Below the pieces are notes generated by a model. The model did no database searches. It was not told the origin of the DNA and saw only the letters and a program-made list of their open reading frames with translations. From positions 62,001 through 126,000 of the forward strand of contig SEHB01000004.1 in the NCBI GenBank assembly GCA_004143945.1: a stretch of DNA of 64,000 nt, in the 5' to 3' direction. This stretch comes from Lysobacteraceae bacterium (GTDB lineage: Bacteria > Pseudomonadota > Gammaproteobacteria > Xanthomonadales > Rhodanobacteraceae). Every line of letters starts with the position of its first letter. Position 1 is the first letter of the stretch. Positions 1,788-7,067 of the stretch are shown here, one piece after another. Made by a program: the position numbers and the translations under genes.

Positions 1788-1816
1788 TTGACATGGTGTT
1801 TACACTTCACTATCGT
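1788..1816 (+). promoter_or_regulatory. Sigma70-like promoter for the 1909 gene
   Basis: TTGACA (1788-1793), 17-nt spacer, TATCGT (1811-1816), about 90 nt upstream of the ATG. Confidence 0.6.
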
Positions 1817-1908: not shown

Positions 1909-2670
1909 ATGAACACCAAGATGAAAGTGCTGTCGCTGGCCCTGATCGGTGCGTTCGGCTACGTGGGTTCGGCTGCGGCGGGTACCTGCCCGGCGGGTCC
2001 GACGGTTCCGGATGGTGGTGCGTGGTCGAGCGAAACGATCCTGCCGCCGGCCACCTCGGCGGTCGAAATCGTCGCGGGCGGCCTTGACGGCTCCGCGTGC
2101 AAGATGACGTCGTCCCTCGGCCCGAGCGTGACTGCGTCGGCGCTGGTTCGCGATGATACGCCGGTCGCCGAGCCGCGTTACCGTTTCCAGTTCATGGTCG
2201 ACAACACGAACCTGACCAACTTCAGCGCGACCGACAATGTCGTCGTGTTCCAGGCTCCTGCCGCGACCACGGCCAATGCGGTGACGCGCGTGCTGCGCGT
2301 CTCGCTCGTTGCCGGCCCGGCTGGCGCGAAGCGCGTCCGCTTCATCGCGACCTGCAACACTGGCCCGACCTTCCTCTGCTCGCAGACGTTCGCGACGGAC
2401 CTGGCCCCGGGCGTCAACACGATTGAAGGCGATCTGGTCGTCGGCGCCGCTGGCAGCCTCCGCGCGTGGGTGAATGCACCGGCAGGGACGACCGAACCCG
2501 GCACCGTCGACGTCACCATTGCGACCGGTGACACGAGCGCGTGGGGCGGTGTCGAGGCGGCTCAGCTTGGTCTGACCGCGCCGAGCGCGGCGTACAAGAA
2601 CAATCACGCAACGCAGGCTGTCGGCTTCGATCGTTTCGATTCGCGTCGCCAGACGTACATCGGCAGCTGA
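1909..2670 (+). CDS. Hypothetical secreted protein
   Basis: Signal peptide MNTKMKVLSLALIGAFGYVGSAAA; SD-like GGGAGAT upstream; beta-rich mature region; own promoter. No family recognised. Confidence 0.85.
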   Translation: MNTKMKVLSLALIGAFGYVGSAAAGTCPAGPTVPDGGAWSSETILPPATSAVEIVAGGLDGSACKMTSSLGPSVTASALVRDDTPVAEPRYRFQFMVDNTNLTNFSATDNVVVFQAPAATTANAVTRVLRVSLVAGPAGAKRVRFIATCNTGPTFLCSQTFATDLAPGVNTIEGDLVVGAAGSLRAWVNAPAGTTEPGTVDVTIATGDTSAWGGVEAAQLGLTAPSAAYKNNHATQAVGFDRFDSRRQTYIGS

Positions 2671-2717
2671 TCCAGCCATAAGAACCACGATCCTTTCCAA
2701 TCATTGGAGTGATAACG

Positions 2718-3221
2718 ATGAAGCGTAATCTGCTACTGACGACCCTTGGTGGCGTCGTGCTGGCCGGGCTGTTCAGCGCCTCGGCTTCCGCCCAGACGTG
2801 TGCGGCCCCGGCTTCGTGGACCCCGGACACCACCGGTGACCCGATCCTCTCGGGCAGCACCTGCGGCAACGAAACCGGCATCGCCGCGGCCTGTCAGGAT
2901 GCGTTCGGCGCCCCGTCGGCTGCGTTCGTGGCCCAGATCAACGTCGCTGCGGAAGGCACGTTCTCGAACATCGACTTCACGGGTGGTGCGGGCTACACGA
3001 TCGCCGCGTACCTCGTGCCGTCGGCCAACGGTTGCGGCAACTTCGCGTGCACGACGACGGGTGACGAGACCACCGACATGCTGCATGCAGACATCGGCCC
3101 GGGTTCGTACTACCTGATCATCACCGGCGCCGATTTCGACGCGCAGGGCGCATGCGGTACGTTCTCGGCGGCTGCCAACGGTTCGTTGCCGGTCACGCTC
3201 CAGGATTTCTCGATCATCTGA
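2718..3221 (+). CDS. Hypothetical secreted six-cysteine protein, paralog of the gene at 5006-5518
   Basis: Signal peptide MKRNLLLTTLGGVVLAGLFSASASAQ followed by TCAAP...; TTGGAG upstream of ATG 2718; strongly similar to the minus-strand ORF at 5006-5518. Confidence 0.9.
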   Translation: MKRNLLLTTLGGVVLAGLFSASASAQTCAAPASWTPDTTGDPILSGSTCGNETGIAAACQDAFGAPSAAFVAQINVAAEGTFSNIDFTGGAGYTIAAYLVPSANGCGNFACTTTGDETTDMLHADIGPGSYYLIITGADFDAQGACGTFSAAANGSLPVTLQDFSII

Positions 3222-3244
3222 ATTTTTTCGATCGTCTGAAGTCA

Positions 3245-3277
3245 AACCCGCCTGCGCCCGCAGGCGGGTTTTTTTTT
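3245..3277 (+). terminator. Rho-independent terminator
   Basis: AACCCGCCTGC-gccc-GCAGGCGGGTT followed by a run of T. Confidence 0.9.
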
Positions 3278-3288
3278 GAGGTCACATC

Positions 3289-4665
3289 ATGCTTTCGATT
3301 CTGGGACTGGCGGCGTCGCTCGCCGCAGCTTCTGCCGCTCCGAAATCGCATCTCGTCATCTCGCAATGCGACGGTGGTGAGCGTAGCCAGTTCGAAGTAT
3401 TCGAGTGTCCGGTCAAACTGCACAACACCGGCAACAAGCCGATCGTGGTGTCGAAGGGCGAGGCGCAATTCGAATCGGACAGCATCGACAACGGGATCGT
3501 GGTAAAGCCCGGCAGCACCGCATACCTCAATACGCGAGTGCGCGTGCTGGACGAGTTCGGATACACCTTGCATCGCTTCCGGTTCAGCACGGATGAGCCG
3601 GGACAAGAGATGCGGGGTTCCAACGTCAAGGTGTTCGTCGTGCCGACGCTCGACCAGCACAAGCCTGTGCTGGATTTCGGCGTTGTCCCGCTGGACAAGC
3701 CGTTGCCCACGAGGGAGCTGGAGCTGAGCAGTCGCGACAGCGCGGACTTCAAGATTCTCGGCGTGATGTCGAAGCCTGACTACCTCGACGTTTCGATTTC
3801 AGGCGATGGCCGGACGATCAAGGCGCGCGTGCTGCCGACCGCTCCCTGGGGCGTGCTCGAGCGCGAGAAGATCAAGCTTTCGATCAATGCTCCGCGGCAG
3901 AAGGAAGCTTGGGTCACCGTAGACGCAAACTTCCTCGGCGATGTGGTGCCGGATGCGAATCCATACTCCTTCGGCCTCATGAGAACCGGCACCAGGAATG
4001 AATTCCTGGTGCGGCTAAGCAGTCGTGGCGGCAAGTCGTTCCGCGTCGGCAAGCTCGAACTCGACGGCATCGAGGGCACGGTCTCTGCGGAGCCTTGCGT
4101 GCCTGCCGTGCAGGGTTGCTCACTGCTTCGCATCGTCGTATCGGATGCCCAGCCGACCGGCCGCGTGTTCGGTCGTGTCATCGTCGAACTTCCCGATTCG
4201 GCTCGCAAGCTCCCCGTTCAACTCGTCGGCATGCTGCTGCCACCGGACTATCCGGTGCACGACATGAACAAGGAGATGGAAAGTTCCAATGCCGCCGAAG
4301 GCGGGGCGACTCCGGTGGCCCCGGCGCAGCCGGCGGTACGCGTCGGCGACGCCCTGCGTGCGGCCGTGACGCAGGAGCCTGCGATGCCCCCGGGCAAGGG
4401 ACCGCTGCTTCGATGGTCGGTTGCGAACGAGAAGCCGATCTACGGTTACATGATCTATCGGGCCGACCGCGAGGAAGGACCGTACGTGCGAATCAATGAG
4501 TCGATCATCAGGACCGAAGGCGCGGCAAGCGGCGCGGTCGGCAAATACGCGTGGCGCGACGACTCGGCCACGGCGGGCAAGACCTACTGGTATTCGATCG
4601 GGACGATCCGAAATGATGGTTCGCGCGAAGACCTCACGACGAAGCAGAAGGTCGTCGCGAAGTAA
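3289..4665 (+). CDS. Secreted protein with DUF1573/Ig-like region and C-terminal FnIII-like region
   Basis: MLSILGLAASLAAASAA signal; repeated 'F.VPTLDQHKPVLDFGVVPLDKP' and 'NTGNKPIVV' beta-sandwich features; C-terminal LLRWSVANEKPIYGYMIYRADREEGPYVRIN...YWYSI resembles FnIII. Confidence 0.75.
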   Translation: MLSILGLAASLAAASAAPKSHLVISQCDGGERSQFEVFECPVKLHNTGNKPIVVSKGEAQFESDSIDNGIVVKPGSTAYLNTRVRVLDEFGYTLHRFRFSTDEPGQEMRGSNVKVFVVPTLDQHKPVLDFGVVPLDKPLPTRELELSSRDSADFKILGVMSKPDYLDVSISGDGRTIKARVLPTAPWGVLEREKIKLSINAPRQKEAWVTVDANFLGDVVPDANPYSFGLMRTGTRNEFLVRLSSRGGKSFRVGKLELDGIEGTVSAEPCVPAVQGCSLLRIVVSDAQPTGRVFGRVIVELPDSARKLPVQLVGMLLPPDYPVHDMNKEMESSNAAEGGATPVAPAQPAVRVGDALRAAVTQEPAMPPGKGPLLRWSVANEKPIYGYMIYRADREEGPYVRINESIIRTEGAASGAVGKYAWRDDSATAGKTYWYSIGTIRNDGSREDLTTKQKVVAK

Positions 4666-5005
4666 TATTTGTACGACGATCGATCCAACACTGCACGAGA
4701 GAGGCGATCAGCGGCCCCAGCGCGGGGCCGCTCCTGCATACCGCATGACTTTGCGAGCGAAGCAGTGTCGGGCTCCTCGGCGCGGTCGTCCGCTTTGGCT
4801 CTCGACTCTGCGCAGGACTGTTAGCCGTCTTCGATTCAGGGTGACGGCACGCAGCAGGACCAGTCGAGCACCTGGCGCAAGTGACTCGTCGGCGCTCCGA
4901 CGCCCGCGATCACGGATAGACCGCCCGACGTGGACGCGCAGCGCGCGCCGAGGGCAGGCGGCGCCTCAAGCATCGAGCAGAACGCGCGCCGCAAGATTCA
5001 TGCGA

Positions 5006-5518
5006 TCAGTCGATCGAGAACGCCTGCAGGGCAACAGGAAGATTGCCGTTCGTCACCAGCGTAAAGTCTCCGCATGCACCGGCTGCATCGAAGTCGGCAC
5101 CGGTGACAATCAAGTAGTAGTCACCCGCCGGCATGTCGGTATGCAACAGATTCGTTGTTGCATCTCCCGTTGTGGTGCACGGAAAGTTGCCACACCCGTT
5201 GGCGACCGGGATGAGGTACATCGCAAGCGTATAGCCCGGGCCGGCGGTCGCGTCGATCGCCGTGAACATTGCGTCATCGGCGACCGTAATTCCTGCGACG
5301 AATGCTGCCCCGGGAGCGCCGAACGCATCCTGGCACACCGCGATGATGCCCGCCTCGTGACCACACGTCGTGCCGGTCAATGGGAAGCCGCCTTCACTCT
5401 CTGACCACGGATGCCAGGCATAAGGAGCTGCGCAGGTCTGTGCCTGCCCGGGCTCGCTTGCACCAGTCACAAGCAGAAGACTGAACGCACCGATGAATCG
5501 CTTCAGAAGTGGCGACAC
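5006..5518 (-). CDS. Hypothetical secreted six-cysteine protein, paralog of the gene at 2718-3221
   Basis: GTG start at 5518 with AGGAG 8 nt upstream; signal-like LLKRFIGAFSLLLVTGASEPGQAQ then TCAAP...; shares CQDAFGAP.AAFVA, NGCGNF.CTTTGD.TT..LH.D, YYLI.TGADFDA.GACG with its paralog. Confidence 0.85.
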   Translation of the reverse strand: MSPLLKRFIGAFSLLLVTGASEPGQAQTCAAPYAWHPWSESEGGFPLTGTTCGHEAGIIAVCQDAFGAPGAAFVAGITVADDAMFTAIDATAGPGYTLAMYLIPVANGCGNFPCTTTGDATTNLLHTDMPAGDYYLIVTGADFDAAGACGDFTLVTNGNLPVALQAFSID

Positions 5519-5626
5519 GGCAGAACTCCTAGGGTCTCGGAGACCAAGGCAGCCTAGCAGCATTCATCCCATGTAGCACTCAGTGCGGCCGAGCCGGTCC
5601 ACGGGGGCGAAATTTGCTCTGGGTGA

Positions 5627-6361
5627 TCAATGCGACAAGGCGATGAAGCCAACCCCGCTTTCCGCCTCCGAGCGGCGTAGCTCAAGCATGCTTTCATGGT
5701 CGTACCAGTCACCCAATACGATCCGCTCAGCTGGTTTCCCTGCTGCCTCCAGCGCATGGCGCGCTGGACGATGCGTATGCCCGTGGACGAGCTTTCGCAC
5801 CGAGGCGAGCGCGAACGCCGACGCGACCGCATCGGCATTCACATCGGTGATCGCCAACTCCACGGACTGGGTGTATCGCTGGCTCTCCGCGCGCGCCTGC
5901 GCCGCGAACGCTTGCCGCTCCGTGACGGGCCGCGCGAGGAACGCGCGTTGCCACGCCGCGGTGTGCGATTTCGCGCGGAATGTCTGGTACGGCGCGTCGT
6001 CGGTGCAGAGCGTGTCGCCGTGCATCAGCAGCACGCGTTCGCCTTCGATCTCGACCACGCTCGGGTCGGGCAGCAGGGTCATGCGTGCGCGGCGGGCGTA
6101 GGCGTCGCCGAGCAGGAAGTCGCGGTTGCCGTGGATGTAGAAGCACGGCACGCCGTGACCGTGCAGTTCCGCGAGCGCCGCCGCGACGATGTCGCCGGTG
6201 GGATCCGGTGCGTCGTCACCGATCCAGGCTTCGAACAGGTCGCCGAGGATGTACAGCGCGTCCGCTCTTGCGGCTTCGTTGCGCAGGAAGGCGACGAACA
6301 GCTGCGTGATGTGCGGACGGCTCGCGTCGAGGTGCAGGTCGGAAATGAACAGCGTCGTCAT
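5627..6361 (-). CDS. lpxH: UDP-2,3-diacylglucosamine diphosphatase
   Basis: MTTLFISDLHLDASRPHITQLF...YILGDLFEAWIGDD...FYIHGNRDFLLG...VHGHTHRPARH: LpxH metallophosphoesterase motifs. Confidence 0.95.
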   Translation of the reverse strand: MTTLFISDLHLDASRPHITQLFVAFLRNEAARADALYILGDLFEAWIGDDAPDPTGDIVAAALAELHGHGVPCFYIHGNRDFLLGDAYARRARMTLLPDPSVVEIEGERVLLMHGDTLCTDDAPYQTFRAKSHTAAWQRAFLARPVTERQAFAAQARAESQRYTQSVELAITDVNADAVASAFALASVRKLVHGHTHRPARHALEAAGKPAERIVLGDWYDHESMLELRRSEAESGVGFIALSH

Positions 6362-6440
6362 GCCGTCGCGTGGCCTCGAACGGGCGATGGCCCGGTGACC
6401 GCCGACCCGGACGCGCCGGGGCGGCGGGATCCATGCCGGA

Positions 6441-7067
6441 TCAGGGCAGCACGCTCGCCTTCTCGATCACGACCGGCGTGAGCGGCACGTCGCTGCGGAA
6501 CTGGTTCTTCGGACCGGTCGGGACCGCCTTGATCTTGTCGATGACGTCGAGGCCGGCGACAACCTTGCCGAACACGCAGTAGCCCGGCTGCGCGTCGCCC
6601 GCGTAGTCGAGCTGCGGGTTGTCGACGACATTGACGAAGAACTGCGCGGTGGCCGAATTCGGGTCGGCGGTGCGTGCGAGCGCGACCGAACCGCGCACAT
6701 TGCTGAGCCCGTTCTTCGCCTCGTTGACGATCGCGGCGCGGGTCGGCTTCTGCTGCAGCTCCTTGGTGAAGCCACCACCCTGCACCATGAAGTTGTCGAT
6801 CACGCGATGGAAGACCGTGCCGTCGTAGAAGCCGCTGTTGACGTAGGCGAGGAAGTTCGCGGTCGACTTCGGCGCCTTGTCGGCCGCGAGCTCGATCGTG
6901 ATGTCGCCCATGCTCGTCTTCAGGAGGACCTTCGGCGCGGCAGCAGGCGCGACGACGGCCGCGGGCTCGGCAGCCTTCGCGGGCTTCGGGGCGGCCGGCG
7001 CAGTGGCCTGGGCAAGGGCGAACGCGGGCGTCAGCAGGACGGCGGCGAGCAGCAGGCGGTCGAACAT
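6441..7067 (-). CDS. Periplasmic cyclophilin-type peptidyl-prolyl cis-trans isomerase
   Basis: MFDRLLLAAVLLTPAFALAQ signal; TSMGDITIELAADKAPKSTANFLAYV..GFYDGTVFHRVIDNFMVQGGG. Confidence 0.93.
   Translation of the reverse strand: MFDRLLLAAVLLTPAFALAQATAPAAPKPAKAAEPAAVVAPAAAPKVLLKTSMGDITIELAADKAPKSTANFLAYVNSGFYDGTVFHRVIDNFMVQGGGFTKELQQKPTRAAIVNEAKNGLSNVRGSVALARTADPNSATAQFFVNVVDNPQLDYAGDAQPGYCVFGKVVAGLDVIDKIKAVPTGPKNQFRSDVPLTPVVIEKASVLP

Follow-up and report, generated by a model that had tools for sequence, protein, structure and literature searches.

Related systems

Pre-peptidase C-terminal (PPC) domains (PF04151; among them the collagen-binding domains 1nqj, 5sv5 and 3jqw of collagenases) are common accessory binding domains. 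The secreted proteins P1 and P2 described here resemble them in a predicted beta-sandwich with a G.YY.IV...G strand near its end, and most relatives of the larger protein encoded beside P1, big458, contain an Ig region of the DUF1573/HYDIN-VesB type (PF07610, PF22544). The T9SS-associated FN3-like domain of Bacteroidota ('LPVELLSF...W.TASE') is homologous, from strand B to strand G, to the end of big458 and to a stand-alone FN3 protein of the same genomes. Pili use donor-strand complementation, in which one subunit supplies the strand that the incomplete Ig fold of another lacks (PMC5954841). A literature search returned no paper on the C-terminal tail of P1, nor on DUF1573 together with PPC.

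The locus and its layout

The window, i.e., the whole stretch of 64,000 nucleotides that was analysed, had been annotated as carrying two secreted look-alikes on opposite strands, and both open reading frames lie where they had been placed, among the following features.

1788..1816, forward strand: sigma-70-like promoter TTGACA-17-TATCGT upstream of sec253 (consensus scan, 10/12 matches)
1909..2670, forward strand: sec253, secreted 253-aa beta-sandwich protein, first gene of the cassette
2626..2667, forward strand: near-invariant C-terminal stretch of sec253, FDRFDSRRQTYIGS (FD.FDSRR.TFIG; alignment)
2718..3221, forward strand: P1, 167 aa, signal peptide, six-cysteine PPC-like domain and C-terminal tail
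3186..3218, forward strand: C-terminal tail of P1, residues 157-167, LPVTLQDFSII; candidate for the strand A donated to FN3
3244..3271, forward strand: intrinsic terminator, 12-bp stem and 9 T, between P1 and big458
3289..4665, forward strand: big458, signal peptide, putative DUF1573/HYDIN-type Ig region and C-terminal FN3-like domain
4399..4662, forward strand: FN3-like domain of big458, from GPLLRW, without a recognisable strand A (FN3 model match from position 20)
5006..5518, reverse strand: P2, inverted P1 paralog, 170 aa; lpxH, in the same orientation, now lies immediately 5' of it
5009..5041, reverse strand: P2 tail LPVALQAFSID; nothing else in the genome fits the coded tail pattern, with [DEG]-stop at its end, exactly

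The promoter-like site ahead of sec253 is by itself not evidence of function. A hairpin with a T-run lies 3' of P1 in all 23 cassettes, and in several of them, the window included, big458 starts some 10-25 bases past the T-run, which in the window leaves too little space for a promoter; given this proximity, big458 is likely to be expressed at a low level by read-through.

A conserved cassette of secreted proteins

P1 had been taken for a small stand-alone family, a description that comparison with relatives does not support, as their P1 genes belong to a conserved cassette of several genes. In Dokdonella and related bacteria the order is sec253, P1, the conserved terminator and big458, with a glycosyltransferase gene on one side and lpxH-ppiB-ppx-ppk on the other, and three genera (g1, g2 and g4) keep sec253-P1-big458 in this place, bounded by the glycosyltransferase gene and by lpxH/ppiB. 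With P1 alone as query, the first scan of genome contigs gave no relatives; these were recovered afterwards with a profile made from a closer alignment. A search by profile for spread and copy number, which had been suggested as a check, then placed P1 in 24 of 399 genomes of the order and six of 98 genera (best candidates per genome scored), with extra copies in several. The match in one of the genomes examined, G294, is marginal and disappears with a larger profile. In an even draw of 399 genomes of the phylum, again scoring the best candidates per genome, P1 occurs only in the window's own family.

The protein sec253 is always encoded directly upstream of P1, and is present in 23/23 genomes whose P1 bears the tail; the 25 other genomes searched, G363 included, lack it. 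Its most conserved 12-column window lies in its C-terminal stretch (mean entropy 0.29, 22 sequences), and this stretch FD.FDSRR.TFIG is far more conserved than the remainder of the protein in 22 genomes, possibly constituting a second linear motif. The AF2 model of sec253 is of low confidence (pLDDT 48) and gives weak galectin/ConA-like matches, and a fold name was dropped because the model is too poor. Domain fusions of sec253 with P1 are found in five genomes (G024:C32, G014:C9, G260:C34, G351:C2, G252:C77), a direct hint that the two proteins act together. Fused sec253-like and P1-like reading frames lie at L114 1612-3210 (+), L115 2268-3425 (+) and 3806-4990 (+), L116 2055-3209 (-) and L117 1876-3132 (-), and those fusions carry neither of the two conserved C-terminal tails, that of sec253 or that of P1.

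It is highly probable that P1, sec253 and big458 work together. Even if no strand is donated between them, the cassette would still be an undescribed, clade-specific secreted module.

The P1/P2 pair and its copies

P1 and P2 are true secreted paralogs. They share most of their mature sequence, as initially proposed: with P1 as the tblastn query they match at E=1.1e-55 and 63% identity over residues 19-166, and their identity in the family alignment is 58%. The predicted secretion signal is also borne out, as both proteins have a signal peptide of Sec type that ends right before TCAAP (called by eye); in P1 it ends in ASAQTC and there is no lipobox. The start codon of P2 is GTG at 5518, with an alternative ATG upstream at 5563.

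In the tree, P2 is the sister of P1 (support 91/84) and has the longer branch. Extra copies of P1 occur repeatedly 3' of big458, on the same strand, in G280, G333, G012, G290 and G327; the inversion is limited to the window among the genomes read. Likewise, the claim that the pair is inverted around a larger gene is correct here, where that gene is big458, and not in relatives; the proposed comparison of synteny confirms the cassette order and not the inverted extra copy. The copies of D. fugitiva, G290 and G327 cluster by lineage, which means that either duplication recurred or the copies were homogenised. A mobile or phage origin of the region was rejected, plasmid and phage matches both being absent.

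The window's genome contains a third relative of P1 at C28:91216-91668, with a frameshifted fourth adjoining it. At C28:90.2-91.3 kb (L004 6174-7274, reverse strand) the tandem P1-like copy is broken by frameshifts and adjoins the intact paralog L004 7181-7972, whose C-terminus is DLVFANGFD, without the LPV tail; on one side of both copies is an lptD-like gene, and on the other an intact gene resembling those of the histone deacetylase family. In D. fugitiva A3 one extra P1 copy has an in-frame TAA (L061 5299-5838, reverse strand), whereas its counterpart in the second D. fugitiva strain (L060 5802-6335) is uninterrupted.

Cysteines and fold

The initial annotation had counted six conserved cysteines and read them as a disulfide pattern, and P1 and P2 do have exactly six each, at equivalent positions, consistent with that reading. 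Conservation extends to most relatives but is not complete: Cys1 (37/37), Cys2 (35/37), Cys4 (37/37) and Cys6 (36/37) are nearly always present, whereas Cys3 and Cys5 are found in only 30/37 members each and are mostly lost together. Six members lack both (L016, L017, L062, L071, L077, L065), and the last of these also lacks Cys2 and Cys6 and keeps Cys1 and Cys4. From this co-loss, the pairs in P1 numbering would be C28-C106, C49-C146 and C59-C111, the last being the best supported and the other two resting largely on one sequence.

Searched alone, P1 matches nothing in Pfam, NCBIfam or PDB sequences, and a Pfam search with P2 does not return PPC (PF04151). Weak Pfam matches to Flagellin_D3, Fimbrial_K88 and Adhesin_Dr were taken as chance. 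Of the 37 family members, 11 match PF04151, with a best E of 3.9e-5 that is under the curated cut-off; this cut-off is 25.9 bits, a tested member scores 24.3, and no tested member passes. The profile of the 37-member family matches the collagenase PPC domain 5sv5 (E 0.0012), and an hhalign comparison with a pair of true PPC domains from the window's genome gives E 3.5e-5 with a probability of 72%. Those two domains, which score above the PF04151 cut-off, lie in an 846-aa reading frame at C19:229694-230227, about 104 kb past the window.

AF2 predicts P1 to be a beta-sandwich with moderate confidence (mean pLDDT 69, core mostly 70-90), and from this moderate model Foldseek returns as its top two PDB matches 1nqj and 5sv5, which are PPC/collagen-binding domains of collagenases (E 8e-3, target TM of 0.55 at most). 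The resemblance to PPC that had been suggested therefore probably stands at the level of the fold, and the check by AlphaFold and profiles that had been recommended for it gives PPC-type folds as the best matches of a remote family that in no tested member reaches the curated cut-off. Since no tested member exceeds that cut-off, the P1 family is called PPC-like, a probable remote relative and not a confirmed member. P1 and P2 are single-domain proteins and, as previously noted, no peptidase is attached.

The C-terminal tail

The initial annotation had described the C-terminal half with G.YYLIITGADFDAQGACGTF and had missed that the tail after it is the most conserved feature of the family. The motif LPV.LQ.FS[IV][DE] forms the last 11 residues of the P1 family and is its most conserved 11-column window (entropy 0.99 vs 2.15, 37 members), with a pairwise identity of 0.64 vs 0.30 for the mature core. 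AF2 places no strand after residue 153, residues 161-167 have a pLDDT below 50, and that of the tail is 38. A segment that is the most conserved and yet predicted to be unstructured looks as a linear motif that binds a partner would.

Throughout the window's genome, the coded tail pattern has no match outside P1 and P2 (P1 ends in I and misses the pattern by this last residue). On this basis, the idea that such C-terminal tails serve sorting across the genome was discarded.

The tail resembles strand A, LPVELLSFTA, of the Bacteroidota FN3-like domain: it is the best 10-mer for FN3 positions 1-10 in 35 of 37 proteins, with a median fit of 12.4 bits vs a 99.9% quantile of 4.9 for the null. With hhalign, P1 157-166 aligns to positions 1-10 of the FN3 template at E 0.0032 but with a probability of 9.9%, the tail having only 10-11 residues; sec253, used as a control against the same template, gives E 0.48. 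A DUF1573/FN3 gene lies within 3 kb of 36 of 55 tail-bearing P1-like proteins vs 0 of 26 tail-less ones (Fisher 3e-9, with kinship ignored and the carriers belonging to five genera). The other 19 of the 55 are without a neighbouring FN3, and the tail-less forms may represent one subfamily.

The FN3-like acceptor candidates

Among 19 relatives of big458, DUF1573 (PF07610) is matched by 12 (best 1.1e-10; the window's own big458 has no match) and HYDIN-like Ig by 11; one weak PapD-like match aside, Pfam names only Ig of the DUF1573/HYDIN type. For the C-terminal domain, a Bacteroidota FN3 model was built from 12 domains, and 24 plasmid records were found with a bait, a generic consensus that was used for retrieval only and is not part of the model. 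This model matches 33/33 FN3 sequences of the P1 clade (best E 1.4e-10; window member E 2e-4), and all 33 matches start at model position 11 at the earliest, mostly at 16-22. When 48 genomes were searched in full, the FN3 matches likewise began at position 11 or later, with the exception of a long multi-FN3 reading frame matching from position 5, which was set aside as unrelated. At the level of sequence, then, the candidate acceptor domain is missing one strand. With hhalign, big458 covers positions 20-89 of the FN3 template (E 7.5e-6); with P1 on positions 1-10, the two proteins tile one domain. Proteins with LPVELLSF and FN3 in one chain were sought in the cassette genomes and none was found. 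The conserved P.G.GPLL ahead of strand B in big458 could form a short strand of its own.

A separate stand-alone FN3 gene is present in 23/23 genomes with a tail-bearing P1, and its product is often a lipoprotein (LAAC, LSAC or LAGC, by eye). From the likely cleavage site, the mature protein begins 6-16 residues ahead of the strand-B Trp, too few for a strand A, which in the Bacteroidota FN3 begins 17-23 residues ahead of that Trp. The FN3 domain occurs in 23/23 genomes with the tail-bearing P1 vs 1/25 of those without it; the exception, G363, is a Dokdonella that has no cassette and keeps the FN3 lipoprotein, P1 and sec253 being absent. In the window's genome the stand-alone FN3 lipoprotein (C25:472300; L101 4518-5591, forward strand) has a conserved neighbourhood, with genes that look like those of ABC-type polysaccharide export and glycosyltransferases.

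A second, diverged type of P1 also adjoins DUF1573/FN3 genes. At these loci (G031 and G373) DUF1573 and FN3 are separate, and the order is P1-like, then DUF1573, then FN3, as three genes. On L113 of G031 (1944-6469, forward strand) the trio of P1-like, DUF1573 and FN3-only genes occurs twice in tandem, and in the FN3-only proteins the domain begins almost right after the signal peptide.

A model of strand donation and its alternatives

These observations suggest that the P1 tail donates strand A to an FN3 acceptor, as in donor-strand complementation, a proposal to which we assign a probability of about 0.5. To judge from the terminator, sec253 and P1 would be abundant and big458 scarce through read-through. 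After export, the tail of P1 would slot in as the missing strand A of the FN3 of big458 or, alternatively, of that of the stand-alone lipoprotein found in every cassette genome, and P1 would thereby be anchored or assembled without a covalent bond; P2, with the same tail, would be a second client. It is about an even bet that the best explanation of the whole is a cell-envelope cassette of which P1 and P2 are secreted PPC-like subunits. A broader reading, that the tails of secreted clients complete FN3 domains lacking strand A, both in a DUF1573 partner and in a lipoprotein that acts as receptor, so that the tail would be a non-covalent, split-FN3 sorting tail of a surface-display or assembly system, is tentative and falls somewhat short of even odds. 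What the sequence displays is a probable PPC-like fold, the gene order, the fusions, the invariant tail, the terminator and an FN3 likeness that starts past strand A; from these we infer binding, anchoring and stoichiometry.

Another way of looking at the tail is to consider it a sorting or export signal for a secretion machine such as type II secretion, its FN3 likeness being coincidental or ancestral. A strictly C-terminal, short and invariant segment would suit such a signal, sec253 has an invariant C-terminal stretch as well, and some tail-bearing paralogs are distant from FN3 genes. Nevertheless, the stretch of sec253 is a different motif, the lack of pattern matches outside P1 and P2 means that the tail is not a general sorting signal in the window's genome, and the fit to strand A lies far above the null while the partner domains are without exactly that strand; this explanation is unlikely. 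It is also conceivable that the tail acts among P1 molecules, forming polymers, or folds back as the last strand of the PPC sandwich. Self-complementing C-terminal strands have been discussed for Bacteroidota fimbriae (PMC5954841), and a fold-back could go unseen in a model of moderate confidence. Both variants appear quite unlikely, because in the AF2 model the core forms strands of its own as far as residue 153, followed by a tail of very low pLDDT, the tail-less P1-like domains (the C28 copy and the sec253-P1 fusions) keep the whole PPC-like region, and the strand-A-less FN3 partners are left unexplained.

The most ordinary account is a local duplication of functionally unrelated secreted PPC-like proteins, involved for instance in adhesion or polymer binding, with neighbours that are there by chance or through shared regulation. 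The frequent use of PPC domains for accessory binding fits this account, as does the local multiplication of copies, which is expected of surface proteins; it is made distinctly improbable by the synteny across genera, the sec253-P1 fusions, the terminator present in every cassette and the recurrence of the set of P1, DUF1573 and FN3 at other loci.

If the strand-donation model is true, secreted proteins would be attached non-covalently by a short, defined tail to an acceptor domain that can be separated from the rest, in a manner that does not belong to the classical pilus systems, and this tail and acceptor would be useful as an orthogonal tag. It would also provide a function for part of the unannotated DUF1573/PPC-like envelope proteins, and a domain that is one chain in Bacteroidota may have become split over two genes.

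Comparison with known systems

The top Foldseek and profile matches of the P1 family are PPC domains (PF04151), from which P1 differs in several ways: it is free of any peptidase, its cysteines probably form three disulfides, it ends in a conserved tail and it scores below the cut-off. Compared with DUF1573/HYDIN-type proteins, big458 adds an FN3-like domain that lacks strand A and has a PPC-like protein as its operon partner. In the Bacteroidota FN3-like domain all strands belong to one chain, whereas here strand A is apparently carried by P1.

Fimbriae (chaperone-usher pili and Mfa1/FimA type V pili) share with this locus an incomplete Ig-like fold with a separate strand that could complete it, and subunit genes followed by that of a partner that is, or here would be, scarcer. 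Here, however, the strand would come from the C-terminus of a PPC-like protein and enter an FN3 that belongs to another protein; no gene of the size of an usher is present in the cassette, and P1, having no lipobox, is not a lipoprotein precursor as in the type V pilus. With no usher, no lipoprotein subunit and other folds, the cassette does not belong among the pilus systems, and it is by analogy that the donor-strand complementation of pili would be its nearest known mechanism.
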